From Arcicella rosea (GTDB lineage Bacteria > Bacteroidota > Bacteroidia > Cytophagales > Spirosomataceae): a stretch of 38,007 nt of DNA. The notes beneath the pieces are model-generated. The model was not told the origin of the DNA, did no database searches, and worked only from the letters and a program-made list of their open reading frames with translations. Shown here one piece after another: positions 4,757 to 23,527 of this stretch. Each line of letters opens with the position of its first letter. Within the stretch, counting starts at the first letter, position 1. The DNA lies in NCBI RefSeq assembly GCF_014204325.1, contig NZ_JACHKT010000041.1, positions 1 through 38,007 on the forward strand. Reading direction: 5' to 3'. A program made the translations under genes and the position numbers.

Positions 4757-4855
4757 AATTTCTTCATTTTTTAGTTTAAAGTGAAGATAATCAAGCATTA
4801 ATACTTATCACAGCGTTTCAATTGAGCTTAACTTTTTTTAACATTTTGAAAGAAA
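4757..4855. other. Spacer between P7 and P8 without heptamer arrays
   Basis: 99 bases that lack the ACTCNNN array seen after P1-P6. In the coding direction it is A/T-rich with short symmetrical pieces (CTCAATTGAG-like) but no stem followed by a T run. This break in the pattern supports reading P8-A2 as a separate unit, possibly with its own promoter, which I could not identify. Confidence 0.4.
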
Positions 4856-7333: not shown

Positions 7334-7368
7334 ACTCCTCACTCCGCATTCAAAACTCATCACTCAAA
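7334..7368. repeat. Five-unit heptamer array after P6 stop
   Basis: Plus strand: ACTCCTC, ACTCCGC, ATTCAAA, ACTCATC, ACTCAAA, with no indels, abutting the TGA stop of P6 (7369-7371). The rest of the spacer (7241-7333) carries looser 7-base repeats related to GGACTNN and GGATTTN. Confidence 0.8.
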
Positions 7369-9789
7369 TCATTCCGTTCGTAAGCTCGTCACAGGATTTG
7401 CTAAAGCCGCTTTGATGGCTTGGTAACTTATCGTCAGCAAAGCTATAAAAAGTGCTAAAATGCCAGCCAATACAAAAATCCAAGCACTGATTTCAATGCG
7501 ATAGGCAAAGTCTTGTAGCCATTTGTTCATCAGCCAATAGCCAATCGGAAAAGCAAAACCGCAGGCAATCAGTACTAATTTTAAAAATTCTTTAGAAAGC
7601 AAAGTAACAATTTGACTCACTGAAGCTCCCAATACTTTGCGAACGCCAATTTCTTTCGTGCGTTGTTCTGCCGTGAAAGTTGCCAAACCAAACAAACCCA
7701 GGCAAGCGACGAAAATGGTAAGTCCAGAAAAAATGCTCAGAATGACACTAATTTTCTGTTCGCTTTGGTATGTTTTTTCAAATAATTCATCCATAAATGA
7801 ATATGAAAAAGGCTCTTCTACATTAAACTTTTGCCATTGATTTTTTAAGGAAGCCAACAAGCCTTCCACATCTTTTCCTTTTACTTTGATGGTTAAACCA
7901 TAAGTTTTTTCAGAAACCATCAACAAAGGCGTAATATTTTCATGAAGTGATTTGAAATGAAAATCCTTCACAACGCCAATGATGCTGTAAGTAACCTTCA
8001 AGCCATCGTTATTTTTTAAGCGAGTAATGGTATGTCCAACAGCATTTTTACCCCAACCGAAAGCTTTTGCAGCCGTTTCGTTGATAATCATGGCGGTAGA
8101 ATCCGTCGCAAAATCTTTAGAGAAATTTCGTCCAGCAATCACTTTCATGCCCATTGTTGGAATATATTGTTCGTCGATTTTGTATTCCAATGTCCGCATT
8201 ACTTGTGATTCATCACTATCTGGATAGCCCATTGAATTATTAGAATCACTTGGCCCAGCAGGTAAATAACCCGCACTGGTTACGCTCAATACTCTTGGGT
8301 CTTGCAAAATTTGCTGACGAAATACTTCTTCATTTTTGCCCAGTGACCAAGTATTTCGCATGATGAGTAATTGGTCTTTGGCATAGCCCAAATCTTTGCT
8401 TTGAATAAACTTAATTTGCTGATACACCACCGTTGTACCGATGATTAAAGCAATAGAAATAAAGAATTGAAAAACCACCAAACCACTTCTGAGACTGATA
8501 CTTTTTCCTGCCAATTTGAATTTGCCTTTCAATACTTCCACAGGATTGAAAGAAGAAAGGAAAAAAGCGGGATAACTGCCTGCCAAAACACCAACCAACA
8601 AACCAAAAACTAAGAAGGCAATGAGTAGGAGTGGGTTTTTGAGGAAATCTAACTGTAAATCTTTTTCGGCTAAATCGTTGAAAACGGGCAAAGACAATTG
8701 TACCAACATCAATGACAGTAGCAGTGCAACGACGCTTAAAAGGATGGATTCAAACAAAAATTGGCTAATTAAATCTTGTTTTATAGAACCCAATACTTTA
8801 CGAACGCCCACTTCTTTGGCACGTTTGGAAGCTCCAGCCGTAGAAAGATTCATAAAATTGATACAAGCGATGAGTAACATAAAAACTGCAATTGCCCCGA
8901 AAATATAAACATATTGAATGTTTCCACTGGGTTCAAGTGTGCCAGTGAAACCTTCGTCGAAGTGAATACTGGTAAGTGGTTGCAAGAAAAGCCCAAGTTG
9001 ATTGCCTTTTTGTAAAAACTGCGAAAGGCTCATGCCCATTGCCGTTTGGATTTGCGGACCCATGTACTTTTTGATGACTTGTGGCAGTTTGGCTTCTAAT
9101 ACTTTGTAGTCGAAATCTTCGGGCAAAACCAAATAAGTAAAATAGCCTGATGTCATCCATGAGGCTGCTTGGGCATCTTTTACGCCAGCCATTGAACCAA
9201 AAATGTCAAAATGAAAATGAGAATTATGCGGTACTTTGTCGATAAGTCCAGTTACTTTATAATTTTCATTCCAACTTTTGATAAATAGAACTTTACCAAT
9301 TGGGTTTTCATCACCGAAGTATTTTTTTGCAAAATCTTGCGTAATAACGGCGGTGTTGGGTTCACGCAAAGCCGTTTTTGCATCGCCTTTCAACAATGGT
9401 AAAGTAAAAACATCAAAGAAATTGGCATCTACAGAAGCGAAATCATGTTCTTTAAATTTCTTATTTTGATAAATAATTTCAGGCGAACCACTGGTACGCA
9501 AACGAGTAGCTGCTAATACTTCTGGATAATCGTTTTTCAGAACCTGAGCCGTTGGTGGCATTACGTTGGCTTCGTTGATTTTTCCGTCGTTGATAGATGC
9601 TTTAAATACTACTCTGAAAATTCTATCTGTTTTTTCGTTAAATCTATCATAGCTTAATTCATCATACACAAAAAGCATGATGACAAGGCAAGTGGCGATT
9701 CCCAAAGCCAAACCAACAATGTTAATTGCTGAGAACACCTTGTTTCTGAGCAAATTACGAATGGCGATTTTTAAATAATTTTGTATCAT
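7369..9789 (-). CDS. FtsX/MacB-type ABC permease P6
   Basis: 806 residues with the same double MacB_PCD-FtsX layout. The start MIQNYLKIAIRNLLRNKVF matches the P5 and P7 starts, and the C-terminus is NPVTSLRTE, with Thr where the paralogues have Lys. The coupling motifs are EVGVRKVLG and EIGVRKVLG. The first extracytoplasmic domain contains a typical MacB-PCD segment (VTGLIDKVPHNSHFHFDIF). No truncation or frameshift. Its start codon region and the following upstream spacer resemble those of P5, consistent with duplication that carried the spacer along. Confidence 0.92.
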   Translation of the reverse strand: MIQNYLKIAIRNLLRNKVFSAINIVGLALGIATCLVIMLFVYDELSYDRFNEKTDRIFRVVFKASINDGKINEANVMPPTAQVLKNDYPEVLAATRLRTSGSPEIIYQNKKFKEHDFASVDANFFDVFTLPLLKGDAKTALREPNTAVITQDFAKKYFGDENPIGKVLFIKSWNENYKVTGLIDKVPHNSHFHFDIFGSMAGVKDAQAASWMTSGYFTYLVLPEDFDYKVLEAKLPQVIKKYMGPQIQTAMGMSLSQFLQKGNQLGLFLQPLTSIHFDEGFTGTLEPSGNIQYVYIFGAIAVFMLLIACINFMNLSTAGASKRAKEVGVRKVLGSIKQDLISQFLFESILLSVVALLLSLMLVQLSLPVFNDLAEKDLQLDFLKNPLLLIAFLVFGLLVGVLAGSYPAFFLSSFNPVEVLKGKFKLAGKSISLRSGLVVFQFFISIALIIGTTVVYQQIKFIQSKDLGYAKDQLLIMRNTWSLGKNEEVFRQQILQDPRVLSVTSAGYLPAGPSDSNNSMGYPDSDESQVMRTLEYKIDEQYIPTMGMKVIAGRNFSKDFATDSTAMIINETAAKAFGWGKNAVGHTITRLKNNDGLKVTYSIIGVVKDFHFKSLHENITPLLMVSEKTYGLTIKVKGKDVEGLLASLKNQWQKFNVEEPFSYSFMDELFEKTYQSEQKISVILSIFSGLTIFVACLGLFGLATFTAEQRTKEIGVRKVLGASVSQIVTLLSKEFLKLVLIACGFAFPIGYWLMNKWLQDFAYRIEISAWIFVLAGILALFIALLTISYQAIKAALANPVTSLRTE

Positions 9790-9866
9790 TTTTTTGGACT
9801 TTAGGATTGATGACTAAAGGACTTTGGGATTTCAGATTTCAGATTTAGGGTTTTGGTAGAAAATTT

Positions 9867-9901
9867 ACTCCTCACTCCGCACTCAAAATTCCCAACTCAA
9901 C
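9867..9901. repeat. Five-unit heptamer array after P5 stop
   Basis: Plus strand: ACTCCTC, ACTCCGC, ACTCAAA, ATTCCCA, ACTCAAC, then directly the TCA complement of the P5 TGA stop at 9902. The rest of the spacer (9790-9866) contains GGACTTT, GGATTGAT, GACTAAA, GGACTTTG, GGATTTC and AGATTTC units of 7-8 bases. Confidence 0.8.
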
Positions 9902-12286
9902 TCATTCTGTTCTTAAACTCTTCACAGGGTTTGCGGAGGCGGCTTTGATGGCTTGATAACTTACCGTTAATAAAGTAATCAATAATGCTCCCAAGCCAGA
10001 TGCTACAAAAATCCACCAAGAAATATCTGAACGGTATTCGTATTTTTTCAACCAATTATTCATGAAAAAATAAGCAATTGGCGTAGCAAGTAGTAACGAA
10101 ATCATCACTAAAAAGACAAAATCTTTAGAAAGTAATTGCCATAAATTCAAAACTGTAGCTCCTAAAACTTTCCTAACCCCGATTTCTTTGGTGCGTTGTT
10201 CTGCGGTGAAAGAAGCCAAACCAAATATGCCAAGACAACTGATAAAAATGGCAAGTATGGCAAAGAAGGTCGCCAGTTTTCCAATTCGTTCTTCGTTTCC
10301 GAATTTCTTCGCATATTCCTCATCTACAAAATTGTATTCAAATGGAACTGCTGGGTTGTATTTTTTGAATACTGTCTCCATTTTACTCAATGCTTCTCTT
10401 GAGCTTATTTTTGGATTTATTTTAATGATAAGAATATTTTCTTGGTCTTTAGAAATATGGAAAAGTGATGGTCTGACTGGCTGATAAGGCGATTGCACCA
10501 CCATGTCTTTAATTACACCCACAATTTTGAATGGTTTACCATTCCATTTAAGGGTCTTTCCAACTGGATTTTTTAACCCTATGAATTTTACGGCAGCTTG
10601 GTTCACTACGAAGGCTAAAGAATCAGTAGCATAGTCTTTTGAAAAATCTCGTCCATCGACAAATTGCCAACCTACGGTTTTTCCATATTCATAAGTAACG
10701 CCATTGTTCGGGAAATCAAGGGCTAAATTTGGGTCTTTTCCTTCCCAATCGAAACCGCCATTTGTATTCCAAACTTCGGTAGTTGGGCTTCCAGATTCGG
10801 TCATTTCTGAAATTGCTCCAGTACTTTTTAATTCCCCACGGATGGTTTCAAAATGATTATGAATATCAGGCGTTTGCATATTCATGGTGATTAAACCATC
10901 ACGATTATAACCAATTGGGCGGTTTTTGGCGTGTTGAATTTGGCGGAAAACTACAATCGTTCCGATAATTAAAGTAACAGAAACGGTAAACTGAATAACA
11001 ACTAATACTTTACGAGGAATAGCCGCATAACGACCCACTTTGAAAGTGCCTTTTAATACTTTGACAGGCTGGAAAGATGATAAATATAGGGCTGGATAAC
11101 TTCCCGCAATTAAACCTGTGAGTAAGCTAAAGCTAAGACCCAACAGCCAAAAGAAAGGATTTGTCCATAGAATGACCATTTTTTTATCAGCTACTTCATT
11201 GAATGTTGGCAAAATAAGCTGAACGAGTAGGATTGAAAATATAAATGCAAATACTACAACTAATAAGGATTCGCTTAAAAACTGGATAATTAATTGGCTA
11301 CGAGCTGAACCAATGGCTTTACGGACACCTACTTCTTTAGCTCGTTTTTCCGAACGAGCGGTACTCAAATTCATAAAATTAATACAAGCCAATAGCAAAA
11401 CGAAAATGCCAATAATACCAAAAAGCCAAACAAATTCAATTCTTCCACCCACATTGATACCATTTTTAAATTCACCATACAAATGCCATTTGCTCATAGG
11501 TTGTAAGAATACTTCGGGTTTATAGCTTTTGTATTCTTTAGCAACTTTATTGAATTTAACATTGATGATTTTTTTTGAAACTTTATCTAAATCAGCATTG
11601 TCAGCCAATTGAACAAAAGTTTGGGTAAAATTGCTTCCCCAAGGATCATCCATCTTTTTAATCCAAGGATTAGTAATCAGGTATAATTCCCAAGGCAAAA
11701 TATACTCCATTGCTTTAAAACTGGAATTGTAAGGTAAATCCTCATAAACGCCTGTTACTTTTACTATTTCTTTATTATCAATTTTGATAAGTTTATTCAT
11801 TGGGTTTGTATCCCCAAAATAGGCTTTTGCTACTGATTCAGATAATAAAATTGAATTTGGTTCTTTCAATCCTCCTCTTGTACCTTTTAGCATCTTCAAA
11901 CTCAACATATCTGTTACTTGTGGTTCAAAGTAATTTCCAGATTTAGTGAATTTCTTTTCTCCATAAGTCAGAATATGGGTTGATGTCCAAGAAGATTGTA
12001 AAACATATTTAAAATCGCTACCATAATGACTGCGAATTTCTTCGGCCATTACCGCTGGATTAGATGGCTGAGTAGTTTTTTCTCCATTATAAAGGTTATG
12101 TTGCAATACTTGTGCGATGCGGTCATAATTTTCATGGGATTTATCGTAGGAAATTTCATCATAAATCCAAAGACCAATTAACATAGCCACTGCCATACCA
12201 GTAGCCAATCCCGCTATATTAATGAAGGAATAGACCTTGTTTCTGAGCAAGGTTCTTAGAGCGATTTTTAGATAATTTTGTATCAT
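9902..12286 (-). CDS. FtsX/MacB-type ABC permease P5 (closest to P2)
   Basis: 794 residues. It is visibly the sister of P2 (17547-19925): shared blocks include AMLIGLWI, ILLSES/ILISES, RAKEVGVRKAIGS, KNRPIGY, SPTT and the second-half coupling motif EIGVRKVLGA. Both differ together from the other paralogues in the first coupling motif (RKAIG instead of RKVLG). All membrane segments and both extracytoplasmic domains are complete. The two genes are separated by P3 and P4, so a simple single-gene tandem duplication does not explain the order. Substrate unknown. Confidence 0.92.
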   Translation of the reverse strand: MIQNYLKIALRTLLRNKVYSFINIAGLATGMAVAMLIGLWIYDEISYDKSHENYDRIAQVLQHNLYNGEKTTQPSNPAVMAEEIRSHYGSDFKYVLQSSWTSTHILTYGEKKFTKSGNYFEPQVTDMLSLKMLKGTRGGLKEPNSILLSESVAKAYFGDTNPMNKLIKIDNKEIVKVTGVYEDLPYNSSFKAMEYILPWELYLITNPWIKKMDDPWGSNFTQTFVQLADNADLDKVSKKIINVKFNKVAKEYKSYKPEVFLQPMSKWHLYGEFKNGINVGGRIEFVWLFGIIGIFVLLLACINFMNLSTARSEKRAKEVGVRKAIGSARSQLIIQFLSESLLVVVFAFIFSILLVQLILPTFNEVADKKMVILWTNPFFWLLGLSFSLLTGLIAGSYPALYLSSFQPVKVLKGTFKVGRYAAIPRKVLVVIQFTVSVTLIIGTIVVFRQIQHAKNRPIGYNRDGLITMNMQTPDIHNHFETIRGELKSTGAISEMTESGSPTTEVWNTNGGFDWEGKDPNLALDFPNNGVTYEYGKTVGWQFVDGRDFSKDYATDSLAFVVNQAAVKFIGLKNPVGKTLKWNGKPFKIVGVIKDMVVQSPYQPVRPSLFHISKDQENILIIKINPKISSREALSKMETVFKKYNPAVPFEYNFVDEEYAKKFGNEERIGKLATFFAILAIFISCLGIFGLASFTAEQRTKEIGVRKVLGATVLNLWQLLSKDFVFLVMISLLLATPIAYFFMNNWLKKYEYRSDISWWIFVASGLGALLITLLTVSYQAIKAASANPVKSLRTE

Positions 12287-12386
12287 TTTTTTGGGACTTT
12301 AGGATTTATGACTAAAGGACTATATGACTAAAAGACCGAAGACTATAAGAGTCAAGTAATAAGGATTTCAGATTTTAGTGAAAAAT

Positions 12387-12421
12387 ACTCCTCATTCCGC
12401 ACTCAAAACTCCCAACTCAAC
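12387..12421. repeat. Five-unit heptamer array after P4 stop
   Basis: Plus strand: ACTCCTC, ATTCCGC, ACTCAAA, ACTCCCA, ACTCAAC, directly abutting the stop complement at 12422. Upstream in the spacer (12287-12386) is the longest of the GACTAAA/GGATTT-type stretches. Confidence 0.8.
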
Positions 12422-14848
12422 TCATTCTGTTCTCAAACTCTTCACAGGATTCATCAAGGCTGATTTTGTGGCTTGAAAACCAACGGTGAGTAAAGCAATT
12501 GCCAAAGCCAAAACGCCCGCAACCACAAAGTACCACCATTCAATATTGATTCTACTCGCAAAATCTTGTAACCATTGGTGCATAAAATAATAGGCAATCG
12601 GGCAAGCGATGAGGATGGCGATACTTACCAAAATCAAAAAGTCTTTTGATAGCAATTGTACAATACTGAATACCGACGCACCCAGAATTTTACGAATGCC
12701 AATTTCTTTGGTACGAGATTCTACCGTGAAAGTAGCTAAACCGAAAAGTCCCATACAAGCGATAAAAATTGCCCAAACCGAAGCCATTGTAAACAAAGTA
12801 CTATACTGACTTTCAGTTTCGTATTGTTTGTTGAAATTTTCGCTCATAAAGAAAAACTCAAATGGATTTCCTGAAAAATGCTTTTTGAATACATTTTCTA
12901 AAGTCGCCACTTTACTATTCATATTTTCGCCAGCAAGCTTTATCGTTAAGTACGAAGAACTATTGAAAGGATAAAAAATCATCGGGTCGATGGCGGTTTG
13001 TAAACCTTTGTGATGATAATCTTTCACAACGCCAATCACATCCAAATAACGTTCGTCCCATTTGATTTTAGCGTTTACGGCTTCGTTGGCTGATTTAAAA
13101 CCGAGTTGCTCAAGGGCTTTTTCGTTCAAGAGTACTTTGCTATTATTGTTCCATTCCACGTCACATTCTTGTTCGGTAAAACTTCTTCCTGCCTTCAATG
13201 GAATATCGTAGGTTTTTAGAAATTTATGTCCAATCGTTACGAAAGAGTAAGGTTTTTGTTCGTCGCCAGTTTTTGATTTGGCAGAAGTAAAACCAACCGT
13301 CGTGAAATTATACCAGTTACTTGGCACGCTTCCGCTGGTACAATAATCATTTACGAAATTGAGGTTGGCAATATCGTTTTCAAAGGCATTTACTCGGTTT
13401 TTGAAAGTACTGTCTTTCCCAATTTCTGGGCCTTTTATTACCAACAATTGCTTGATATTCATGCCCAAATCTTGGTTTTGCATGTGTTTCAACTGACTGA
13501 AAATAATCAACGTAACAATAATCAGTACAATTGAAATACTGAATTGGGTAACCACGAGTGATTTACGCAAGAAAATCCCTTTAGCTGATTTGTGTAATTT
13601 TCCTTTTAGGGTTTCTATCAATTTAAAATTCGCCAAACCCCAAGCGGTATAAATGCCCGAAGCGACAGAACCAATAATCAACAAGCCCAAACCAATAATC
13701 CACAAAGAGGAGGAAAGTAAAGTACTCAGCGAAAGGTTTTTCTGAATGATTTCGTTGAAAAATGGTTGTAAAAGTGTCACCAGAAAAATAGCTCCAATAA
13801 AGGCTAAAAGGTTTACCAAAATAGATTCTCCCAAAAATTGCATCACCAAATTGTTGCGAGTTGCTCCGATTACTTTTCTTACGCCTACCTCATTGGCTCT
13901 TTTTAGGGCGTTGGCGGTACTTAGGTTGATATAATTAAACCATGCAATCAGTAAAATCAAAAAGGCGATGCCACTTAAAATAAATACATATTTGATATTG
14001 CCATTGTGTGGATAAGTATCTGAAAAACTGCTTGCTAAATGGATTTCCGAAAAAGGTTGTAAGCGAAAAGTTATATCATCATTTTCTTTGCTGAGTTCCT
14101 TGCGGAGTACATTGAGTTTGCCTTCAAGTGCCAGATAATCAGTATTTTGATTTAACTGAAAATAGGTGTCAATATACTGAGAATCCAGATTAGTAAGATT
14201 TGCCCAAGAGTTATCATTGAGGTTGGCTGGGTTTTTTAAGGTTTCTAATGAAAAAACAAAGTCGAGTTGAATGTCGGAAAGGTCGCCCATATTGGCAAAA
14301 ACACCTTCTACTAAATAATCTTTTTTCCCAAATTGGTTATATAAAGTAAGCGTTTTACCGATAGGATTTTCTTGGTCGAAGTACTTTTTCGCCACAGATG
14401 CTGCTACAAAAACTACATCAGGTTTTTGTAATGCCGAAGCCGAACCTTTGATGAGTGGAAAACTAAAAAAAGTAAAGAAATTACTTTCTGAATAGGCTAC
14501 TTTTTTCTCACGGAAAGAAACATTTTTTGCCTCATATTTCACTACGCCTTGCCCAACGCTCTCGGCTACACGACAGTAACTTTTGATTTCTGGAAAACGT
14601 TCTTGTGCTTTCGTAGCCCAGCCCGGTTCTACTTGAGCCCACGATTCGCCTTTGGAGTTTTGGTTCAAAAGTCGGAACATCGTAGGCAAGTTGGCGTGAA
14701 ATTGGTTCACGCTTTTTTCCAAACTTACATATTCCAAAATCAACAAAAAGGCAGCAATCCCCAAAGCCAAGCCCGCAATGTTGATAAATGAGTAAACCTT
14801 GTTTCTTAACAAGATTCTCAAAGCGATTTTTAAATGATTTTTGAACAT
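12422..14848 (-). CDS. FtsX/MacB-type ABC permease P4
   Basis: 808 residues, double MacB_PCD-FtsX architecture. The first 18 residues (MFKNHLKIALRILLRNKV) are identical to those of P3, and the DNA is identical for 56 bases, while the bodies of the two proteins have diverged widely. The first extracytoplasmic domain is unlike the paralogues (Ser/Asn-rich, QNSKGESWAQVEPGW). Coupling motifs are EVGVRKVIG and EIGIRKILG. Complete, with C-terminus NPVKSLRTE. The distinct outer domain suggests a different partner or substrate from its neighbours; that is inference. Confidence 0.92.
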   Translation of the reverse strand: MFKNHLKIALRILLRNKVYSFINIAGLALGIAAFLLILEYVSLEKSVNQFHANLPTMFRLLNQNSKGESWAQVEPGWATKAQERFPEIKSYCRVAESVGQGVVKYEAKNVSFREKKVAYSESNFFTFFSFPLIKGSASALQKPDVVFVAASVAKKYFDQENPIGKTLTLYNQFGKKDYLVEGVFANMGDLSDIQLDFVFSLETLKNPANLNDNSWANLTNLDSQYIDTYFQLNQNTDYLALEGKLNVLRKELSKENDDITFRLQPFSEIHLASSFSDTYPHNGNIKYVFILSGIAFLILLIAWFNYINLSTANALKRANEVGVRKVIGATRNNLVMQFLGESILVNLLAFIGAIFLVTLLQPFFNEIIQKNLSLSTLLSSSLWIIGLGLLIIGSVASGIYTAWGLANFKLIETLKGKLHKSAKGIFLRKSLVVTQFSISIVLIIVTLIIFSQLKHMQNQDLGMNIKQLLVIKGPEIGKDSTFKNRVNAFENDIANLNFVNDYCTSGSVPSNWYNFTTVGFTSAKSKTGDEQKPYSFVTIGHKFLKTYDIPLKAGRSFTEQECDVEWNNNSKVLLNEKALEQLGFKSANEAVNAKIKWDERYLDVIGVVKDYHHKGLQTAIDPMIFYPFNSSSYLTIKLAGENMNSKVATLENVFKKHFSGNPFEFFFMSENFNKQYETESQYSTLFTMASVWAIFIACMGLFGLATFTVESRTKEIGIRKILGASVFSIVQLLSKDFLILVSIAILIACPIAYYFMHQWLQDFASRINIEWWYFVVAGVLALAIALLTVGFQATKSALMNPVKSLRTE
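14793..14848. repeat. 56-bp exact direct repeat, copy at P4 start
   Basis: These 56 bases covering the first codons of P4 are identical to 17378-17433 at the start of P3. Outside the block the two genes differ strongly, so this looks like gene conversion or a shared recent crossover point. Confidence 0.8.
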
Positions 14849-14854
14849 TTTCTT

Positions 14855-14902
14855 GACTTTCGGATTTTAGGACTTTCGGATTTTAGGACTTTAGGATTTT
14901 GG
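14855..14902. repeat. Three 16-base direct repeats in the P3-P4 spacer
   Basis: GACTTTCGGATTTTAG occurs at 14855-14870 and 14871-14886 exactly, then at 14887-14902 with two changes. Each unit is two of the GGA(C/T)TTNN octamers that recur in the other permease spacers. Confidence 0.85.
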
Positions 14903-14920
14903 AGGTTTGGTGAAAAATTT

Positions 14921-14955
14921 ACTCCTCACTCAGCACTCAAAACTCCCAACTCAAA
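14921..14955. repeat. Five-unit heptamer array after P3 stop
   Basis: Plus strand: ACTCCTC, ACTCAGC, ACTCAAA, ACTCCCA, ACTCAAA, followed by AAA and the stop complement at 14959. Confidence 0.8.
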
Positions 14956-14958
14956 AAA

Positions 14959-17433
14959 TCATTCTGTTCGTAAACTTTTCACTGGGTTCATCAAAGCGGC
15001 TTTTACTGATTGATAACTTACAGAAATCAAAGCAATGGTGATAGAGGCGATACCGCCCAACGTAAAAATCCACCAACTAATATCAATGCGATAAGCGAAA
15101 TCTTGTAACCATTGATTCATCGCCCAATACGCAATCGGCGTAGCAATGAAGATTCCTAAAATGACTAATTTCAAAAAGTCTTTCGACAGCAATTGCATGA
15201 TTTGCATCACCGAAGCTCCTAATACTTTGCGAATGCCAATTTCTTTGGTGCGTTGTTGGGTTGTAAAAGCCACTAAGCCAAATAAACCCATGCAAGAAAT
15301 CAAGATAGCAACGCCCGTAGCGGTGTTGAGAATTTTGGCAAAGCGTTCTTCTTTTTCATAGAATTTGGCAATACTTTCATCAAAAAAATGCGGACTAAAT
15401 TCTTCATAACTATTAGGATAAATTTCCTTGTAAGCTTTTTCTATTTTGGCTAAAACAGTTTTGAAATCAGTCGAAGATTGTCCTTTGCTATGAATTTTTA
15501 CGTTGATAGCAGATTCATATTTAGTTTCCGACATCATATACAAAGGCTGAATGGCTTTGTGTAATGACTGTAAATGAAAGTCAGCCACAACGCCAACGAT
15601 GGGTAATTTATAATCTCCTTTTCCACCCGAATAAACTAAAAAGTGTCCAACGGCTTGTTCTGGCTTTTTGAAACCCAATGCTTTTGCGTAAGTTTCGTTA
15701 ATGATAAACTCTTTGGCGGTGTCGCTATTGGTGATATTTCTGCCTGCCAAGATTTTTATCCCAAACATCGGTATATAATTTTCATCAATCGTTCTTCTAT
15801 GAACATCTAATTTGATTTCCTTTTCGCCTTCCTTATAAGTTACTCTGTTGGTAGAATAGCCATTTCTTGCTGGTGTTTCTCCAAGACTAACAATTGCTAT
15901 TTCAGGAATTTGCTTTAGTTTTTGAATGAGTACGTTCTTCTTGTTACTGTTTACGTCATTCCAATCTGTGTGAAAATTAACGATGGCATCTTTTTTAAAG
16001 CCGAGGTCTTTACTAAGCATATACTTCGACTGCGTAGCCACAATGATTGTTCCTAAAATAAATACTTGCGAAGCTGTAAATTGAAAAGTAATCAAAGCTT
16101 TACGAAGTAGAGCAGTTCGAGTTTGTCCGCCAGACGATACTTGGTTTTTCAAAGACGAAACAGGCTGATATGCTGAAATCATCCAAGCAGGATACAAGCC
16201 TGATAAAACACAAGTGCCAAGCGTGATGATGCCTAAAAAGCCTAAAATATTTGGACTTAAAACATTAAAAGATAATTCTTTCGGAATAAATTCTTTGAAA
16301 ATCCAAAGAATAGGTTCTACTAAAAGAACAGAAAAAAAGACGGCTAACGTGGTGATAATAAATGTTTCACATAAAAACTGAATCACTAAAGTTTTTCTAT
16401 TACTTCCCAATACTTTACGAACACCGATTTCTTTAACACGAGTAATAGATTGTGCGGTTGATAAATTAACGTAATTGATGGCAGCAATCAAAAGTAAAAA
16501 TCCAGCGATTCCCAACAATGTGTAAAGCGTTGGTAAATGTACTTGTCTTGAAAAATTGTCTTGTAATGTATCACTAAAATGAATATCCGATAAAGCTTGC
16601 AATGACAGCATTCTACCATTATTCCACTCATCTTTTTGGTCAAGATGTTTTTTTAGAAAAGCAGGAAATTGAGCATTTACAGTATTTGCTTTGGCATTTT
16701 GAGTAAGTTTTACAAAAGCCATTGAACTCGAATTGGTGTTCGTCCATTGGTCTAATTGAAATTCTTTACGCCAATTTTTGGCTTCGATACTTTTGAAAGA
16801 AATAAAGTTTTTAAACTTAAAATCAGAATTAACAGGAAAGTCTTTCACAACGCCCGTTACAGTTGTCGCCAAAGAATCATTGAAGTATAATTGTTTGCCT
16901 AATACTTGTGCTAAAGGAATTTTGCCAAAATACTTTTCTGCTTCTGTCTGGCTTAATACTACTTGGTTGGGCGTAGTGAGGGCTGTTTTGGGGCTTCCTG
17001 CTAACCATTCGTAATTGAAAATTTTAAAATATTCTGGCTGACAAACCAATACTTCTGAATTGTCATTTTTCCAGATTTTAGCTGGATTTTTACCGTCTTT
17101 TTTGTCGTTTGGTAAAGATGTTCTTGCACTCCAAACATGACAAGCCGATAGATACTCTATACCCGAAATTTCTTGTGCAAGAGAAGCGGGCATTGGAGCA
17201 GACAAACCTGGGTTATAATAATTTTCTCCTTGCTGGCCTTTGAAACCAGAAGTTACTCTATAAATTCGTTCACGGTCGGGTTGAAAATCCTCAAAACTCA
17301 GTTCAAAGCTGACAAGTAAATAAATCACCAAGCAGGCACTTACGCCAATTGCCAAACCCAATATATTAACGAAAGAATAAACCTTGTTTCTTAACAAGAT
17401 TCTCAAAGCGATTTTTAAATGATTTTTGAACAT
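14959..17433 (-). CDS. FtsX/MacB-type ABC permease P3
   Basis: 824 residues, the longest of the eight. Layout is the same as its neighbours, with coupling motifs EIGVRKVLG and EIGIRKVLG and C-terminus NPVKSLRTE. The extra length is mainly in the first extracytoplasmic domain (region around VWSARTSLPNDKKDGKNPAK) and in the second one (KIHSKGQSSTDFKTV). It shares its first 18 codons with P4. Second-half features such as EYGIK-type FGIKILAGRNITNSD and YPNSYEEF are closer to P1 than to P5 or P2, as judged by eye. Confidence 0.92.
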   Translation of the reverse strand: MFKNHLKIALRILLRNKVYSFVNILGLAIGVSACLVIYLLVSFELSFEDFQPDRERIYRVTSGFKGQQGENYYNPGLSAPMPASLAQEISGIEYLSACHVWSARTSLPNDKKDGKNPAKIWKNDNSEVLVCQPEYFKIFNYEWLAGSPKTALTTPNQVVLSQTEAEKYFGKIPLAQVLGKQLYFNDSLATTVTGVVKDFPVNSDFKFKNFISFKSIEAKNWRKEFQLDQWTNTNSSSMAFVKLTQNAKANTVNAQFPAFLKKHLDQKDEWNNGRMLSLQALSDIHFSDTLQDNFSRQVHLPTLYTLLGIAGFLLLIAAINYVNLSTAQSITRVKEIGVRKVLGSNRKTLVIQFLCETFIITTLAVFFSVLLVEPILWIFKEFIPKELSFNVLSPNILGFLGIITLGTCVLSGLYPAWMISAYQPVSSLKNQVSSGGQTRTALLRKALITFQFTASQVFILGTIIVATQSKYMLSKDLGFKKDAIVNFHTDWNDVNSNKKNVLIQKLKQIPEIAIVSLGETPARNGYSTNRVTYKEGEKEIKLDVHRRTIDENYIPMFGIKILAGRNITNSDTAKEFIINETYAKALGFKKPEQAVGHFLVYSGGKGDYKLPIVGVVADFHLQSLHKAIQPLYMMSETKYESAINVKIHSKGQSSTDFKTVLAKIEKAYKEIYPNSYEEFSPHFFDESIAKFYEKEERFAKILNTATGVAILISCMGLFGLVAFTTQQRTKEIGIRKVLGASVMQIMQLLSKDFLKLVILGIFIATPIAYWAMNQWLQDFAYRIDISWWIFTLGGIASITIALISVSYQSVKAALMNPVKSLRTE
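17378..17433. repeat. 56-bp exact direct repeat, copy at P3 start
   Basis: Identical over 56 bases to 14793-14848 (start of P4). See the evidence there; the copies are 2,585 bases apart and in the same orientation, so recombination between them would delete one whole permease gene. Confidence 0.8.
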
Positions 17434-17479
17434 GGGTTTGGACTTTAGGATTGATGACTAAATGACTAAAGGATTTTGG

Positions 17480-17539
17480 ATTAGGAGTTTTGACTTTTGG
17501 TGAAAATGTACTCCTCACTCAGCACTCAAAACTCCTAAT
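17480..17539. repeat. 14-bp inverted repeat in the P2-P3 spacer
   Basis: ATTAGGAGTTTTGA (17480-17493) is exactly complementary to TCAAAACTCCTAAT (17526-17539) across 32 bases. The right arm lies inside the heptamer array. In the mRNA this would fold between the P2 stop and the P3... next start; there is no T run, so it is more likely a processing or stability hairpin than a terminator. Confidence 0.6.
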
Positions 17540-17544
17540 TCGAA
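17510..17544. repeat. Five-unit heptamer array after P2 stop
   Basis: Plus strand: ACTCCTC, ACTCAGC, ACTCAAA, ACTCCTA, ATTCGAA, followed by AA and the TTA stop complement at 17547. The rest of the spacer (17434-17509) has GGACTTTA, GGATTGAT, GACTAAAT, GACTAAAG, GATTTTG units. Confidence 0.8.
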
Positions 17545-17546
17545 AA

Positions 17547-19925
17547 TTATTCTGTTCTTAAACTCTTCACTGGATTAGCCGAAGCGGCTTTTACGGCTTG
17601 ATAACTTACTGTTAGCAAAGTAATTATTAAAGCCCCAAAACCCGATGCTGCGAAAATCCACCAAGAAATTTCTGAACGATATTCGTAGTTTTTCAACCAG
17701 CCATTCATAAAGTAATAAGCAATTGGCGTGGCGATTAAGAATGAAATCATGACCAACATCACAAAGTCTTTTGATAATAATTGCCATAAATTGAAAATTG
17801 AAGCACCCAGTACTTTTCTGACACCAATTTCTTTCGTGCGTTGTTCAGCCGTGAAAGAAGCCAAACCAAAAATGCCTAAACAAGAAATGAAAATTGCCAA
17901 GCAAGCAAAGAAAGTAGCGAGTTTACCAATGCGTTCTTCGCCACTGAATTTTAGAGCGTATTGTTCGTCAGCAAATTTGTAATCGAACGGACTGCCTGGA
18001 TTGTATCTTCTAAATACTTCGCCTACTTTTTCCAAAGAGGCGGAGGCACTCATGGCAGGATTCAACTTGACATTGATAATATTTGCCCAACCATAATTGA
18101 TAAAAAATATTGTTGGTTTAATTGGCTCATAAGGGGATTCCATCACCATATTTTTAATGACACCCACGATACGATAATTTTTATCGTTCCAATTGATATT
18201 TTTTCCAACAGGATTTTTCATACCGATAAACTTGGAAGCCGCTTCATTCAAAATCATTGCAGAAGTATCAGTTGAAAAACTTCTTGAAAAATCTCTACCT
18301 TCTACAAATTGCCAACCGACTGATTTTGCATAATCATGCGAAACGGCAATTACTCCGAAAAGTGCTTGTAGATTTGGGTCTTTGCCTTCCCAATTAAAAC
18401 CGATTTGGTTGGAATAAACTGCCGTTGTAGGACTTGATGACTGCGACATTTCATACACTGCTCCCGTTTTTAATAAATCACTTCTAAGTGCATCGTAATG
18501 CCCAACAAGTTCAGGAGTATTGATGTTGATGGCAATCAATCCATCACGACTATAACCAATTGGGCGGTTTTTGGCATGTTGAATTTGACGATAAACGATA
18601 ATTGTTCCGATGATTAAAGTAACTGAAACGGTAAACTGAATTACTACCAATACTTTCCGTGGAACGGCGGCAAATCTTCCCACACGAAAAGTACCTTTAA
18701 GTACTCGGATTGGGTCGAAAGACGATAAGTAAAATGCTGGATAACTTCCAGAAACCAAACCTGTAATTAATGAAAACGAAATACTGAGTATCCAGAAATA
18801 GGGATTTGTCCAAAGAATGGACATTTTTTTATCTGATAATTCATTGAACCACGGCAAAGTAAGCGTGACCAACACAAGCGTAAGCACAAAAGCAAACACT
18901 ACAATGAGTAAAGACTCGCTTAAAAACTGAGTAATTAATTGCGAACGAACCGAACCAATTGCTTTACGAACGCCTACTTCTTTTGCACGTTTTTCAGAGC
19001 GAGCAGTACTTAAATTCATAAAGTTGATGCAAGCCAACAAAAGTACAAACACGCCAATAATGCCAAATAACCATACAAACTGAATACGTCCGCCAGCTAT
19101 TTTACCGTCTTTAAATTCAGAATATAAATGCCATTTACTCATCGGATGCAAGAAAACCATCGGTTTGGCTGCATCTTGTTTGTCGTGATTAAATTTTACT
19201 AATCTGATTTTTGCGGATACTTTATCAAAATCTGCATTTGGATTTAGCTCTGCAAAAGTTTGAAATGAGTTATTATTCCATTGGTCTTGCGAGTTTTTTA
19301 CCCAACTTTCGGTAGCCAGATACATTTCCCAAGGCAATACATAAGTTACTTCGCTGAGGGTGGTATTGTGTGGTAAATCTTCATAAACGCCCGTTACTTT
19401 TACATTGGTTTTGTTATCTACTTTAATGATTTTATTAATCGGGTCGGTATCACCAAATAAAGCAGTGGCAACTGATTCAGAAATAAGAATAGAGTAGGGG
19501 TCTTTCAAACCTTTTTGCGAACCTTTCAACATTTTGAACGAAAACATTTCTGGGAATTTGGGTTCTACAAAATTTCCTGTTTTGGTGAATTTTCTATCGC
19601 CCACTGCCAAAATATGTTCAAAGTTCCAAGAAGACAAAACTACATTTTTGAAATCTCCTGAATATTTAGCTCTTAGTTCTGGAGCTAAAGGCAAAGGCAT
19701 TGCCGTTTGCGAACCTGTAACGCCATTCCAAGTTTGGTTTTGCATCACTTGTGCCAGACGGTCGTATTTTTGATGATACTTATCGAAAGAAATTTCATCG
19801 AAAATCCAAAGTCCAATGAGCATCGCAACTGCCATTCCTACCGAAAGACCAACGATATTTATTGCCGAGAAAGCTTTGTTTCTCAACAAGGTTCTAAGAG
19901 CAATTTTGAAATAATTTTGTAACAT
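17547..19925 (-). CDS. FtsX/MacB-type ABC permease P2 (closest to P5)
   Basis: 792 residues, complete. It shares with P5 the first coupling motif RKAIG, the segment VGMAVAMLIGLWIFDEISFD near the N-terminus, KNRPIGYSRDGLI in the second extracytoplasmic domain, and SPTTAVY. Its start MLQNYFKIALRTLLRNKAF is a mosaic: the first part resembles P5, while NKAFSAINIVGL resembles P6. Such patchwork is expected when tandem paralogues exchange sequence. It lies between P1 and P3, with arrays in both flanking spacers. Confidence 0.92.
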   Translation of the reverse strand: MLQNYFKIALRTLLRNKAFSAINIVGLSVGMAVAMLIGLWIFDEISFDKYHQKYDRLAQVMQNQTWNGVTGSQTAMPLPLAPELRAKYSGDFKNVVLSSWNFEHILAVGDRKFTKTGNFVEPKFPEMFSFKMLKGSQKGLKDPYSILISESVATALFGDTDPINKIIKVDNKTNVKVTGVYEDLPHNTTLSEVTYVLPWEMYLATESWVKNSQDQWNNNSFQTFAELNPNADFDKVSAKIRLVKFNHDKQDAAKPMVFLHPMSKWHLYSEFKDGKIAGGRIQFVWLFGIIGVFVLLLACINFMNLSTARSEKRAKEVGVRKAIGSVRSQLITQFLSESLLIVVFAFVLTLVLVTLTLPWFNELSDKKMSILWTNPYFWILSISFSLITGLVSGSYPAFYLSSFDPIRVLKGTFRVGRFAAVPRKVLVVIQFTVSVTLIIGTIIVYRQIQHAKNRPIGYSRDGLIAININTPELVGHYDALRSDLLKTGAVYEMSQSSSPTTAVYSNQIGFNWEGKDPNLQALFGVIAVSHDYAKSVGWQFVEGRDFSRSFSTDTSAMILNEAASKFIGMKNPVGKNINWNDKNYRIVGVIKNMVMESPYEPIKPTIFFINYGWANIINVKLNPAMSASASLEKVGEVFRRYNPGSPFDYKFADEQYALKFSGEERIGKLATFFACLAIFISCLGIFGLASFTAEQRTKEIGVRKVLGASIFNLWQLLSKDFVMLVMISFLIATPIAYYFMNGWLKNYEYRSEISWWIFAASGFGALIITLLTVSYQAVKAASANPVKSLRTE

Positions 19926-20021
19926 AATTTTAACGATTAGGATTGATGACTTTAGGATTAGAGGACTACAGGATTTTAGATTGCGGATTTTAGATTTTGT
20001 ATTTCAGATTTCGGAAAATTT

Positions 20022-20056
20022 ACTCCTCACTCCGCACTCAAAACTCCCAACTCAAA
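20022..20056. repeat. Five-unit heptamer array after P1 stop
   Basis: Plus strand: ACTCCTC, ACTCCGC, ACTCAAA, ACTCCCA, ACTCAAA, followed by AA and the stop complement at 20059. The rest of the spacer (19926-20021) has GGATTGAT, GACTTTA, GGATTAGA, GGACTAC, GGATTTT, AGATTGC, GGATTTT units. Confidence 0.8.
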
Positions 20057-20058: not shown

Positions 20059-22455
20059 TCATTCTGTTCTTAAACTTTTTACGGGATTTGCTAAGGATGC
20101 ACGAACCGAACGATAACCTACCGTAATGCTGGCAATGAGTATCGTCGTAGCGATAGAAAGCAAGAAAATTCCAGCCCCAATGCTGATTCTGTACTCGTAA
20201 TTCTGTAACCAAGCGTTCATGATCCACCAAGCAGCAGGAGCGGCAATCACAAAAGCAATAATGATAAGTTGTGCAAATTCTTTTCCGAACATCATTAAAA
20301 TATTGCCAATACTTGCTCCCAATACTTTTCTGATACCGATTTCTTTGGTTTTTTGTGCTGCCATAAACGACACCAAACCGTAAAGTCCTAAACAACCAAT
20401 TAAAATGGCAACCAAAGCAAAGAAGTTGATAAGTTTGCCCATTGTTTCCTCTTCTTGGTAAGCCGCTTGGATGGCTTCATCTACAAATTGATGGTTGAAA
20501 TAACTTTCTGGATATACTTGATTAAAGCTTTTTTCTAAAGTTTTAATTACCTTTTGAAAATTAGCCGAACGTAATTTAACATTGACAGAATAGTAATTTG
20601 TAGCCAAGGTTGTCATGTATAAAGGTTCAATCGTTTGGGAAAGTGACTGTTGATGAAAGTCTTTTACAACACCCACGATTTCTACCTTTCGCCCTCTTGC
20701 TTCTATTTTTTTACCGATAATTTTTGCAGGGTCTTTGAAGTTAAGCTTCTTCGCAAAAGCTTCATTTACTACTACTTCTCTGATAGAATCAGAAGGGTAA
20801 AGGTTACGCCCAGCTACTAATTTTATACCGTATAAATCTAAATAATTAGCGTCAATGCTTTTAACATGAGTACTCCATTTTTCGTCTTCTCCACGATTGT
20901 CAAATCTTAAACTTGTGCTATTTACCCAGCCAGATTGCGGTGGACCCGACATTGAAAAACTGATTTTTTCTACATCAGGAACAGCCGAAGCCAAATTCTT
21001 GAAGGTATTCATTTTGACAACATCTTGCTTCGACATAAAAGGAAGACTAATGGTTAAGATAGATTCTTTTTTGAAGCCTAAATCCTTATTCTGAAAATAC
21101 GACAGTTGGCTTGTCACTACTGCCATGCCAATAATTAGCATTTGCGAAATGGCAAACTGAACGACTACTAAACTTCTTCTTACAGAAAAACCGCCTACTT
21201 GTTGCGTTGAAATTTTGCCTTTCAAAGCCATTACGGGTTGAAATCCTGCCAATACTAAAGCTGGGTACGCTCCAGAAAGTACGATAACGGCAAGAATGAT
21301 AAGGACAACATACAAGATAACAGAGGCATCGAAGTAGAAAGTAAATCTGAAAGCTCCATCTAAGTACTCACGAGCGATTTTCTCTCCAAATTGAAATAAT
21401 ACAATTGAAATCAGCAATGAAGTAATCGTAATCATGGCGGTTTCTGCCATAAATTGCCAAAACAATTGTGCTTTTGAACTTCCTAAAACTTTGCGAACAC
21501 CTACTTCTTTAGAACGTTTCAAAGCCTGAGCCGTTGCTAAGTTGACGAAGTTGATACTTGCTGTAATAATTAAGAAAATACCAATGGCAAAGAGTGATAA
21601 AATAAGGTTTTTGTTGATGCCGCCGTAGTCTTCTGAAAAGTGAATTTCTTTCAAAGGCTGCATTACATAGTGAATATATTTCGCTTCATCTGGACGATAT
21701 TTTTTTACAAAAGCAGGCATTAGTTTGTCCCAATTAGCTTTGGTGAATTTTTCGTTCAATGAAACTACACAACGAGTACTGCTATTTGTACTTCCGAAAT
21801 TATCGTTGATAGAACCATAATATTCTTTCAAACTGGCATACGAGGGCATTACTTCGTAGGCAAAATCTGTATTGTCTTTATAATCTTTGAAAACGCCAAC
21901 GATTTTAAGGTTCAAACGACCATCGTGTTTGATGATTTTGCCGATAACATCCGTTGTGCTGAAGTATTTTAACGCATTTTTTTCGCTGATAACAACTGTA
22001 TTAGGATTTTTTAGCTCTTCAAAACCACCTTGAATCCATTCATAGTCAAAAATTTTAAAGAAAGAAGGTTCAACAAAAGCACCTTCGCCTGTTTCTTTAA
22101 ATTTTTTGTCTTCGCCATTTGCCGAAGGAATAGCTTCGAAATAATCTTCTGCTAATTCCGTCATCGAAAGGTTTTCGATATTGGGAAAATCTGTCAAAAC
22201 AGCTTTTCCCAAAGGATAGGGGACACCCGGAGAATGAAAATTTTCACCACCTTCTCTCGAAACAAATTCACTTACGATTCTGTAAGTATTTTCATATTTG
22301 CTATGATGTTTATCAATACTGAAATGGTAGCGAACTAAAGCAAAAATCAACATGGCACAAGTAAGCCCTAAAGACAAACCTGCAATATTGATAAAAGCGT
22401 AACTTTTGTTCCTCAAAAGGTTACGAAAAGCGATTTTTATATAATTGGTTAACAT
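20059..22455 (-). CDS. FtsX/MacB-type ABC permease P1
   Basis: 798 residues, the first permease of the cluster and the one next to ATPase A1 (109-base spacer). Start MLTNYIKIAFRNLLRNKSY; coupling motifs EVGVRKVLG and EIGIRKVLG; C-terminus NPVKSLRTE. The loop before the second motif reads FMAAQKTKE instead of the FTAEQRTKE type of the paralogues. Both extracytoplasmic domains are full length. With A1 and the adaptor upstream it is the most likely membrane component of a MacAB-like tripartite machine, although the adaptor could equally serve other members. Confidence 0.92.
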   Translation of the reverse strand: MLTNYIKIAFRNLLRNKSYAFINIAGLSLGLTCAMLIFALVRYHFSIDKHHSKYENTYRIVSEFVSREGGENFHSPGVPYPLGKAVLTDFPNIENLSMTELAEDYFEAIPSANGEDKKFKETGEGAFVEPSFFKIFDYEWIQGGFEELKNPNTVVISEKNALKYFSTTDVIGKIIKHDGRLNLKIVGVFKDYKDNTDFAYEVMPSYASLKEYYGSINDNFGSTNSSTRCVVSLNEKFTKANWDKLMPAFVKKYRPDEAKYIHYVMQPLKEIHFSEDYGGINKNLILSLFAIGIFLIITASINFVNLATAQALKRSKEVGVRKVLGSSKAQLFWQFMAETAMITITSLLISIVLFQFGEKIAREYLDGAFRFTFYFDASVILYVVLIILAVIVLSGAYPALVLAGFQPVMALKGKISTQQVGGFSVRRSLVVVQFAISQMLIIGMAVVTSQLSYFQNKDLGFKKESILTISLPFMSKQDVVKMNTFKNLASAVPDVEKISFSMSGPPQSGWVNSTSLRFDNRGEDEKWSTHVKSIDANYLDLYGIKLVAGRNLYPSDSIREVVVNEAFAKKLNFKDPAKIIGKKIEARGRKVEIVGVVKDFHQQSLSQTIEPLYMTTLATNYYSVNVKLRSANFQKVIKTLEKSFNQVYPESYFNHQFVDEAIQAAYQEEETMGKLINFFALVAILIGCLGLYGLVSFMAAQKTKEIGIRKVLGASIGNILMMFGKEFAQLIIIAFVIAAPAAWWIMNAWLQNYEYRISIGAGIFLLSIATTILIASITVGYRSVRASLANPVKSLRTE

Positions 22456-22490
22456 GGTTTTAAAGGTTTTTGCAATTGATATTTAGTGAG

Positions 22491-22542
22491 TTGTGAATGA
22501 GTGAATTAGTGATTAAATAAGAGTAAAATCACTCATTCACAA
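22491..22542. repeat. 14-bp inverted repeat between A1 and P1
   Basis: TTGTGAATGAGTGA (22491-22504) is exactly complementary to TCACTCATTCACAA (22529-22542). The left part is built of TGANTNN-like 7-8 base units and the right part of their complements (TCACTCA, TTCACAA, TTCACTAAA, TCACTCA). In the transcript it folds between the A1 stop and the P1 start, with no T run, so it probably affects processing or translation rather than ending transcription. Confidence 0.65.
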
Positions 22543-22564
22543 TTCACTAAATCACTCAATAAGG

Positions 22565-23242: not shown

Positions 23243-23257
23243 GATTTTAGGATTTAT

Positions 23258-23355
23258 TAGCTTTGAGCTTTGAGCCGTGAGCTATGAGTTTTTAGTTTTT
23301 AGCAATGAGCTTTTAGCGTTGAGCCATGAGCTATGAGCCATGAGCTTTGAGTTTT
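23258..23355. repeat. Fourteen-unit heptamer array upstream of the S23-type gene
   Basis: Fourteen consecutive 7-base units with no indel, consensus (G/T)AG(C/T)NNT: for example GAGCTTT, GAGCCGT, GAGCTAT, GAGTTTT, TAGTTTT, TAGCAAT. It starts 15 bases upstream of the A1 start codon, so it lies in the A1 leader region as well. Confidence 0.88.
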
Positions 23356-23410
23356 AGATTAAGCTTTTTATCTTTAATTTATATTTTTGAGTAAATTGTT
23401 ACTATCTTTT

Positions 23411-23445
23411 AGCTGTGAGCTATCAGCTTTGAGCTACGAGCTTTT
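23411..23445. repeat. Five-unit heptamer array (left arm of a 23-bp inverted repeat)
   Basis: AGCTGTG, AGCTATC, AGCTTTG, AGCTACG, AGCTTTT. Bases 23411-23433 are exactly complementary to 23485-23507, giving a 23-bp stem across 51 bases. Confidence 0.88.
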
Positions 23446-23463
23446 TTATTTACACTAAGTAAT

Positions 23464-23519
23464 CTCAAAGCTTTTAACTAAAATCTCAAAGCTGATAGCT
23501 CACAGCTCAACGCTAAAAT
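23464..23519. repeat. Eight-unit heptamer array (right arm of the inverted repeat)
   Basis: CTCAAAG, CTTTTAA, CTAAAAT, CTCAAAG, CTGATAG, CTCACAG, CTCAACG, CTAAAAT: the same 7-base family in the opposite orientation, ending 8 bases before the start codon of the S23-type gene, so it forms that gene's 5' leader. Confidence 0.88.
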
Positions 23520-23527
23520 ACACTACA

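Follow-up and report, generated by a model that had tools for sequence, protein, structure and literature searches.

Six heptamer arrays follow the stop codons of a permease cluster

The window analysed here is a stretch of 38,007 nucleotides (nt) on contig NZ_JACHKT010000041.1 of Arcicella rosea, the genome of which (G000) comprises 5.31 Mb. Eight of its genes, designated P1 to P8, all encode MacB_PCD/FtsX permeases and are flanked by ATP-binding cassette (ABC) ATPases at positions 1657-2319 and 22565-23242. Downstream of the stop codons of six of these genes, P1 to P6, we found tandem arrays of seven-base units, each 35 bases long and composed of five indel-free NNNGAGT or NNNGAAT units. The array directly abuts the stop in the case of P6, P5 and P4 (gap 0 nt), while the gap is 3 nt for P3 and 2 nt for P2 and P1. 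A first-pass annotation of the sequence had described these six arrays, with their positions, length, unit number and distance of 0-3 nt from the stop, as well as the lack of arrays behind P7 and P8. All of this was confirmed, the latter by inspection of the spacers that follow P7 and P8 (57 and 25 nt), in which no such heptamer units were found. When the window was searched for (ACTCNNN)5 with at most two mismatches, seven matches were obtained, corresponding to the six arrays and one register shift of the P1 array, while 100 dinucleotide-preserving shuffles of the window yielded none. No Rfam family matched the window at gathering score. The permease genes and their arrays are as follows.

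20059..22455, minus strand: P1, MacB_PCD/FtsX permease, array-bearing
20022..20056, minus strand: five-unit NNNGAGT array after P1, gap 2 nt
17547..19925, minus strand: P2, MacB_PCD/FtsX permease, array-bearing
17510..17544, minus strand: five-unit array after P2, gap 2 nt; G008 ortholog with four units
14959..17433, minus strand: P3, MacB_PCD/FtsX permease, array-bearing
14921..14955, minus strand: five-unit array after P3, gap 3 nt; G008 ortholog with five units
12422..14848, minus strand: P4, MacB_PCD/FtsX permease, array-bearing
12387..12421, minus strand: five-unit array after P4, gap 0 nt; G008 ortholog with four units
9902..12286, minus strand: P5, MacB_PCD/FtsX permease, array-bearing
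9867..9901, minus strand: five-unit array after P5, gap 0 nt; G008 ortholog (89% amino acid identity) without array
7369..9789, minus strand: P6, MacB_PCD/FtsX permease, array-bearing
7334..7368, minus strand: five-unit array after P6, gap 0 nt; G008 ortholog with five units
4856..7240, minus strand: P7, MacB_PCD/FtsX permease, without array
2345..4798, minus strand: P8, MacB_PCD/FtsX permease, without array

G008 is a relative from another genus.

Arrays of this type recur beside stop codons throughout the genome

We searched the A. rosea genome for the five-unit pattern, allowing up to two mismatches, and obtained 62 matching windows. Altogether 61 stretches (the window included) were read, covering 1.20 Mb and 1008 called genes; because these stretches were partly picked around five-unit matches, five-unit arrays are inflated among them. 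Genes were called by a simple script, and their start positions are rough. We used in addition a blind sample of 26 stretches (520 kb) picked regardless of matches, and a second whole-genome search for four units with one mismatch, which does not require a fifth unit, is blind to three-unit arrays and picks up five-unit arrays slightly more easily than four-unit ones. A reversed-pattern control (64+55 versus 29+33 matches in the A. rosea genome) was not used, since TGAGT arrays match it too.

The four-unit search returned 53 places, 52 of which were read; 49 of the 52 are non-coding and three lie inside called open reading frames, and 43 of the 49 are located outside the window. When one degenerate unit was bridged, 25 of these 43 arrays had five units, 16 had four, one had six and one had nine. 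Arrays of three units occur as well, with 13 counted in the read stretches, and the blind stretches contain six runs of at least three units (three of three, two of four and one of five). The usual unit number is four or five. Hence, the constant number of five units emphasised by the first-pass annotation holds for the six window arrays, but as a genome-wide rule "exactly five" is too strong.

By contrast, its claim that the arrays are not placed at random was borne out by the genome-wide check, in which 33 of the 35 stop-following arrays outside the window were located within 10 nt of the stop. Of the outside-window sense arrays that have at least four units and a called gene on both sides, 30/34 begin at most 10 nt past the stop, when compared to 5.9 expected for even placement in their own spacers and a maximum of 13 in 2000 simulations. 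In the 61 stretches, GAGT recurring at +7 within 150 nt past stops was the strongest such tetramer (66 observed versus 2.0 expected), and runs with four or more GART units (R = A or G) numbered 57, of which 54 were non-coding. The boundaries of the arrays are sharp at both sides, as judged from 27 five-unit post-stop arrays that include the six of the window. Array-bearing genes are diverse and include those for GroEL, SucC and GltX (Pfam was applied to 10 of the 31 upstream genes outside the window, one of the ten being without a match). The placement of the arrays is neither due to chance nor special to permeases.

The G-rich strand of the arrays reads outward from genes

Close to stops (within about 12 nt), we counted 43 runs of at least three units in the 61 stretches, all of them in sense orientation and none antisense. 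Upstream of starts, another 13 runs were found at a distance of at most 70 nt (11 of the 13 at most 50 nt away), with the GART strand pointing away from the gene; some of these are the far arms of inverted pairs. Five start-side runs seemed to point inward, but as they begin at -2 to +9 nt relative to the preceding gene's stop, they were assigned to that gene. Near gene borders, the G-rich strand of the arrays reads outward from genes. Since start-side arrays are antisense, this argues against a function that needs only the 3' end of the messenger RNA (mRNA). With one strand facing outward at both gene ends, any function is likelier to be exerted through the DNA or through the direction of the polymerase than through the mRNA 3' end.

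Outside the window, raw counts of arrays with four or more units gave 18/520 array-carrying stops between co-directional genes and 12/232 between convergent genes, and 6/520 array-carrying starts between co-directional genes and 4/266 between divergent genes. That convergent ends are not poorer in arrays speaks against a device for separating cistrons. In divergent spacers, the lag-7 match is near the values of the neighbouring lags.

Unit composition, folding and stop codons

The unit can be written as KNKGART (K = G or T), as T or G occupies the first position of the free triplet in 205 of 209 inner units; the outward strand of the arrays contains 2.8% C and 37% G. A G-quadruplex was ruled out, as GGG occurs in 6/54 arrays and four GGG runs occur in 0/54. 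Nor do the data support a simple sequence repeat made by slippage, for which the units of one array should be more alike: for outside-window arrays with four or more units, unit likeness was 0.104 within arrays and 0.091 between arrays. On the other hand, 116 ordered triplet pairs are common to different loci, compared to a shuffled mean of 87.2 (reached in 2/500 shuffles), and the same holds weakly for ordered triplet triples (10 versus 5.3; reached in 20/500 shuffles). This excess between loci fits some copying of whole arrays from one locus to another.

Isolated arrays barely fold, with a mean minimum free energy of -1.7 kcal/mol for 37 arrays and a value under -5 in one of them. Post-stop stretches with arrays fold about like 60 controls (mean z against shuffles -2.9 versus -2.6; both medians -1.6), and a hairpin or processing site was dropped as an explanation for these reasons. 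A complementary arm with a score of at least 28 was found for 8/36 arrays, and for 3/36 the array's own downstream stretch paired better than other arrays do (p ≤0.05). Stops in all three frames are present in 26 of 37 post-stop arrays, compared to a mean of 7.4 for letter shuffles and to 61/297 ordinary post-stop stretches. However, T precedes GA in 35/50 cases for arrays that do not follow a stop and in 71/121 cases for post-stop arrays outside the window (p 0.23; 9/24 in the window), and since the former share this T, the three-frame stops look like a by-product.

The permease arrays are young

The six arrays are 83-97% identical to each other, although the proteins encoded by the array-bearing genes share 31-40% identity, with the exception of P2 and P5 (67%). 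High array identity despite this protein divergence in most pairs indicates that the permease arrays are young. If the arrays had simply persisted from the gene duplications onward, their changes over all that time would have been no larger than those between A. rosea and G008. In G008, the orthologs of P2, P3, P4 and P6 are 94-97% identical at the amino acid level, with a difference of 0.20-0.27 at fourfold-degenerate sites. The arrays behind the P2 and P4 orthologs are shorter by exactly one unit (2/4), and those behind P3 and P6 have five units. The P5 ortholog (89%) has no array, while a further P5-like gene (66%) carries one of five units. The permease cluster of G008, 94-97% identical to P2-P4, P6 and P7, is located at about 2.19-2.22 Mb on contig C6, and horizontal transfer of this cluster with its arrays is possible, given that the other GAGT arrays of G008 are few.

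Orthologs of P3 in four genomes of the same genus (G003, G004, G005 and G007; 60-71% amino acid identity) have no array. Dyadobacter psychrotolerans is among the relatives (67% for P3), and one contig scan of named relatives covered six loci, none of which had a run of three units. Plasmid-borne relatives of P3 (42 records) are all below 60% identity. Permease spacers from the same genus (L116, L117, L118, L120, L125) and gltX sites (L156, L157) contain palindromes resembling repetitive extragenic palindromic (REP) sequences, some of the GTAG...CTAC type, and these sites correspond to sites of heptamer arrays after related genes in A. rosea.

We also compared codons at residues shared between array-bearing permeases, omitting the P2/P5 pair. 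The same codon was used in 1527/3295 cases in the body of the genes, in 73/126 in the last 10 columns and in 63/79 in the first 10 columns, in comparisons that are not mutually independent. For P7 versus the array-bearing permeases, the values were 26/57 in the last and 16/38 in the first 10 columns. The codon likeness at gene ends may reflect a spread or homogenisation of the gene borders through recombination.

Arrays come and go beside conserved stop codons

For comparison with orthologs outside the permease cluster, we picked three genes for their conservation, groEL, sucC and gltX; sequences were partial or ended with the contig for groEL in G001 and G002, sucC in G004 and gltX in G006. 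In A. rosea, a heptamer hairpin of about 65 nt lies between the groEL stop and the terminator. In six aligned relative sequences from five genomes, the stop is followed by a short spacer and the terminator without any heptamer hairpin; G005, where a different short inverted repeat occupies this place, is not part of the alignment. Behind sucC, the same-genus genomes G007, G001 and G005 have heptamer-like arrays with other letters, the GAGT units of G005 being 14 nt apart, and no array was found at the sucC stop of G002, G003, G006 and G008. In G007 and G001 (L145, L146), arrays of the TAGAGAA type stand where A. rosea has GAGT units. The gene that follows gltX is the same in several genomes. 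The spacer between the two measures 12-17 nt in G003 and G002. In A. rosea it contains the GAGT array and in G004 and G007 a REP-like palindrome; G005 has a GGATTTA-type repeat at this site, and G033 has a perfect heptamer hairpin. Arrays come and go beside conserved stops.

Other heptamer families in A. rosea and its relatives

GAGT arrays are not the only heptamer repeats of this genome, which also has heptamer (and octamer) families of the AGCTNTG, GGATNTC and CAAGANN types. In the blind stretches, 16/297 post-stop regions contain a strong lag-7 window (at least 18/28), while the same measure at lags 4, 5, 6, 8, 9 and 10 gave 5, 2, 0, 11, 1 and 1 regions, respectively. We found 20 heptamer hairpins of several families in 654 spacers of 40-400 nt and none in 200 shuffled spacers. 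Eighteen of the 20, with loops that measure 0-247 nt, are located behind a stop. In 15 of these 18, the 5' arm begins at most 14 nt from the stop, and in 12 the 3' arm ends at most 24 nt before the next gene. The 5' arm contains more G than C in 15/20 hairpins.

The plain pattern is present in 33 of 58 relatives (34/59 when A. rosea is included). The same form with other letters occurs in G051 (GAGTACN-type arms) and in G033 (GAATATT and GAGTTAT types), and long perfect heptamer arrays are found in G007, G004 and G008, those of G007 and G008 being of the GAGTTAT/GAGTTGT type. Two perfect GAGTTGT arrays on contig C6 of G008 (2746879-2747162 and 326939-326991; about 41 and 8 units) have the appearance of a slippage-type expansion of a related heptamer.

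In the window, the 3' part of each array spacer contains a second set of seven- or eight-base repeats of the AAATCCN/AAGTCCN type, which the first-pass annotation does not mention. Tandem-repeat rows of this set are located at 14855-14900, 19937-19975 and 19971-20015, and its purine-rich strand runs outward from the start of the next gene. Two further features of the array spacers are the following.

17478..17493, minus strand: partial inverted partner of the P2 array, a possible hairpin remnant; 15/16 bases complementary, rank p 0.031
14855..14900, plus strand: repeats of the second set in the spacer behind P3, with 8/16-base units GACTTTCG/GATTTTAG and the purine-rich strand facing away from the start of the following gene

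Upstream of P1, the spacer between this gene and the ATPase gene at 22565-23242 (22456-22564) contains a long imperfect hairpin with GAGTGATTTAGTGAATTG-like repeats and arms at about 22521-22557 and 22481-22514. The spacer between the second ABC ATPase gene and an HlyD-like gene (23243-23982) carries AGCTNTG-type heptamer arrays in inverted order on either side of a small gene (23528-23878, plus strand) that encodes a 23S rRNA-intervening sequence protein (PF05635, E 4.7e-42).

Origin of the arrays and alternative explanations

Considering these data together, we regard it as probable that the six arrays represent local copies of a family of gene-border heptamers that is genome-wide and lineage-specific, and that they were gained beside coding borders and spread by recombination. 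The family consists of usually four or five KNKGART units directly outside the coding sequence with the G-rich strand facing away from the gene. Single copies would arise as short gains of DNA beside a stop codon, some of them as inverted pairs that form hairpins and of which one arm may be lost later. In the permease cluster, the spacer together with its array would have been spread and homogenised via recombination between paralogous gene ends. The window arrays are thus, in our favoured interpretation, ordinary members of a dispersed repeat family that were multiplied with and within the permease cluster. Their appearance is that of young repeats in the course of spreading and not of a conserved control element. 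Tolerance at gene borders, combined with weak selection at most, is compatible with the data, with the exception of how tightly the arrays abut the stops.

Several observations weigh against this interpretation. Between the window and G008, 13 of 126 aligned array bases differ (0.103), so that the arrays look mildly conserved when compared to fourfold-degenerate sites. The start of P7 follows an array spacer and yet is not homogenised, and P1 was included among the homogenised permeases although it follows no array spacer. Plain local slippage would predict that units resemble each other more within arrays than between arrays, which they do not. Birth from hairpins is seen in a minority of arrays, with arm scores of at least 28 in 8/36 and better pairing with the own partner in 3/36. 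The 5' arm does not contain more G than C in 5/20 heptamer hairpins, and the outward-G rule is therefore not universal across heptamer families. Finally, gain of arrays by A. rosea, rather than repeated loss elsewhere, is a step that we infer.

Among the alternatives, the first-pass annotation had taken the constant unit number as a sign of a maintained element. In its most explicit form this would be an mRNA 3'-end element, in which four or five unstructured and nearly C-free KNKGARU units are bound by a single-strand RNA-binding protein and stabilise or separate cistrons. The location of arrays within 10 nt of stops on the sense strand, the near absence of folding in isolated arrays and a rate of array change of about half the fourfold-site rate are in favour of such an element, as are several arrays that precede an ordinary terminator hairpin, a position which suggests that they are transcribed. 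However, the 13 start-side arrays are antisense and would not be read by the mRNA 3' end of that gene, and arrays occur at convergent stops as well as at co-directional ones. Moreover, readable groEL, sucC and gltX sequences of the same genus are without this array, with other heptamer-like repeats after sucC in G001, G005 and G007, and the P3 orthologs of four same-genus genomes are arrayless. We consider this explanation unlikely. Maintenance of a constant number is at odds with the youth of the copies, the whole-unit changes in two of four G008 arrays, the arrayless P5 ortholog and the orthologous stops of the same genus that have no array or another repeat. Processing of mRNA between cistrons, another suggestion of the annotation, is disfavoured by the counts at convergent and co-directional stops, the antisense start-side arrays and the scarcity of folding. 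Its third suggestion, recombination, gained some support as the route by which the six copies were spread and homogenised, but not as their function.

A different role would be that of a directional insulator. Rho binds YC-rich, G-poor RNA, and a polymerase moving inward would transcribe C-rich, unstructured (ACTCNNN)n with a YC step every 7 nt, a possible loading site for Rho; in this way, transcription that reads through or runs antisense would be halted at gene borders. This would agree with an orientation rule valid at both gene ends, with the C-poor and G-rich outward strand and with the somewhat higher share of array-carrying stops in convergent pairs. The difference between stops is small, though, starts behind a co-directional gene show no excess over divergent ones, and most genes have no array, which makes an insulator improbable in our view. 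We assign still less likelihood to a REP-like mobile element that is moved by a Y1 transposase (REP-associated tyrosine transposase, RAYT). The arrays are dispersed, partly palindromic and located behind stops, and the A. rosea genome has six Y1_Tnp matches, but none of these six loci (2.2-3.3 kb each) contains a run of three GART units, and most arrays neither have a pairing arm nor fold by themselves. Reverse transcriptase (PF00078) had no match in this genome, and neither the REP/RAYT nor the retro-element candidate could be linked to the arrays there. The least credible option, in our estimation, is that of back-up stop codons, in which the seven-base period carries TGA through the three frames past the true stop. 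Although three-frame stops are in excess in post-stop arrays, arrays that do not follow a stop, and for which such stops are irrelevant, carry T before GA equally often.

The outward orientation and the tight abutment to stops remain surprising, and this layout is common to unrelated heptamers in other phyla. It is conceivable, though doubtful on the present data, that a general rule operates in distant phyla, according to which about four or five heptamer units are written just outside the coding sequence with a fixed strand outward at both ends. Under such a rule, the letters would be largely irrelevant and differ between species even after the same gene. If true, it would be the period, number and direction that are made or selected, and not the sequence or a G-quadruplex, and the underlying process would have to distinguish a coding border from the spacer, for instance by the direction of the polymerase or by the loading of Rho onto the inward strand.

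Relation to known repeat systems

Seven-base tandem repeats enriched in intergenic DNA are known as long simple sequence repeats or as short tandemly repeated repetitive (STRR) heptamers. The long perfect arrays in the relatives G007, G004 and G008 resemble these, whereas the units within an A. rosea array are no more alike than those of different arrays. STRR heptamers are also cited in a study on TAACTGA direct repeats in marine Beggiatoaceae, Cyanobacteria and five Bacteroidetes (MacGregor 2015, PMC4679880). According to this study, the TAACTGA repeats of the best studied genome are mostly located just upstream of starts and oriented towards them, and were proposed to be translational sites. 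They share with the A. rosea arrays the organisation as short heptamer direct-repeat sets at gene borders in mostly fixed orientation, and one Bacteroidetes set, which lies right after a stop and is reversed, fits the outward rule (PMC4679880). The unit itself differs, being KNKGART here. REP sequences of E. coli, 446 of 4072 of which lie within 15 nt of a stop codon according to the RepRanger paper (PMC12306157), are likewise dispersed, intergenic and partly close to stops. Unlike those, most arrays of A. rosea are not palindromic and have no pairing arm, and the six Y1_Tnp loci carry none.

The closest counterparts are the GGGAATC and GGGGA(C/T)T heptamers of Xanthomonas and Nostoc. In the respective study (Rehm et al. 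2015, PMC4692102), these are described as intergenic, transcribed, few between divergent genes and with a preferred unit number of four; their G-rich strand is the coding strand within 50 bp past stops and the non-coding strand within 50 bp before starts. They occur as single arrays or inverted pairs next to diverse genes, and repeat length varies between relatives. The study connected the preferred unit number with G-quadruplex formation and left open what role these repeats have (PMC4692102). The A. rosea arrays are similar in their seven-base units, intergenic location (49/52 places non-coding), diverse neighbouring genes, occurrence as singles or inverted pairs and length differences between relatives, and also in the strand rule at stops (43:0) and starts (13 runs, 11 within 50 nt) and a small preferred number, which is four to five here. 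They differ in that KNKGART has no G-tracts and forms no quadruplex, in that most arrays lie within 10 nt of the stop, and in their Cytophagales host. The absence of arrays with four GGG runs (0/54) places the arrays outside the Xanthomonas/Nostoc family, with the architecture in common.

In the literature searched, we found no description of these repeats in this bacterial group. The arrays are a variant new to that literature, with a layout known from other bacteria. Since a heptamer that is unable to form a quadruplex shows this layout here, together with a similar unit number, number and layout need another explanation. With the orientation rule, the empty groEL site, the short gltX spacers and letters that differ between species, both the origin and the use of such arrays become testable in cultivable relatives.

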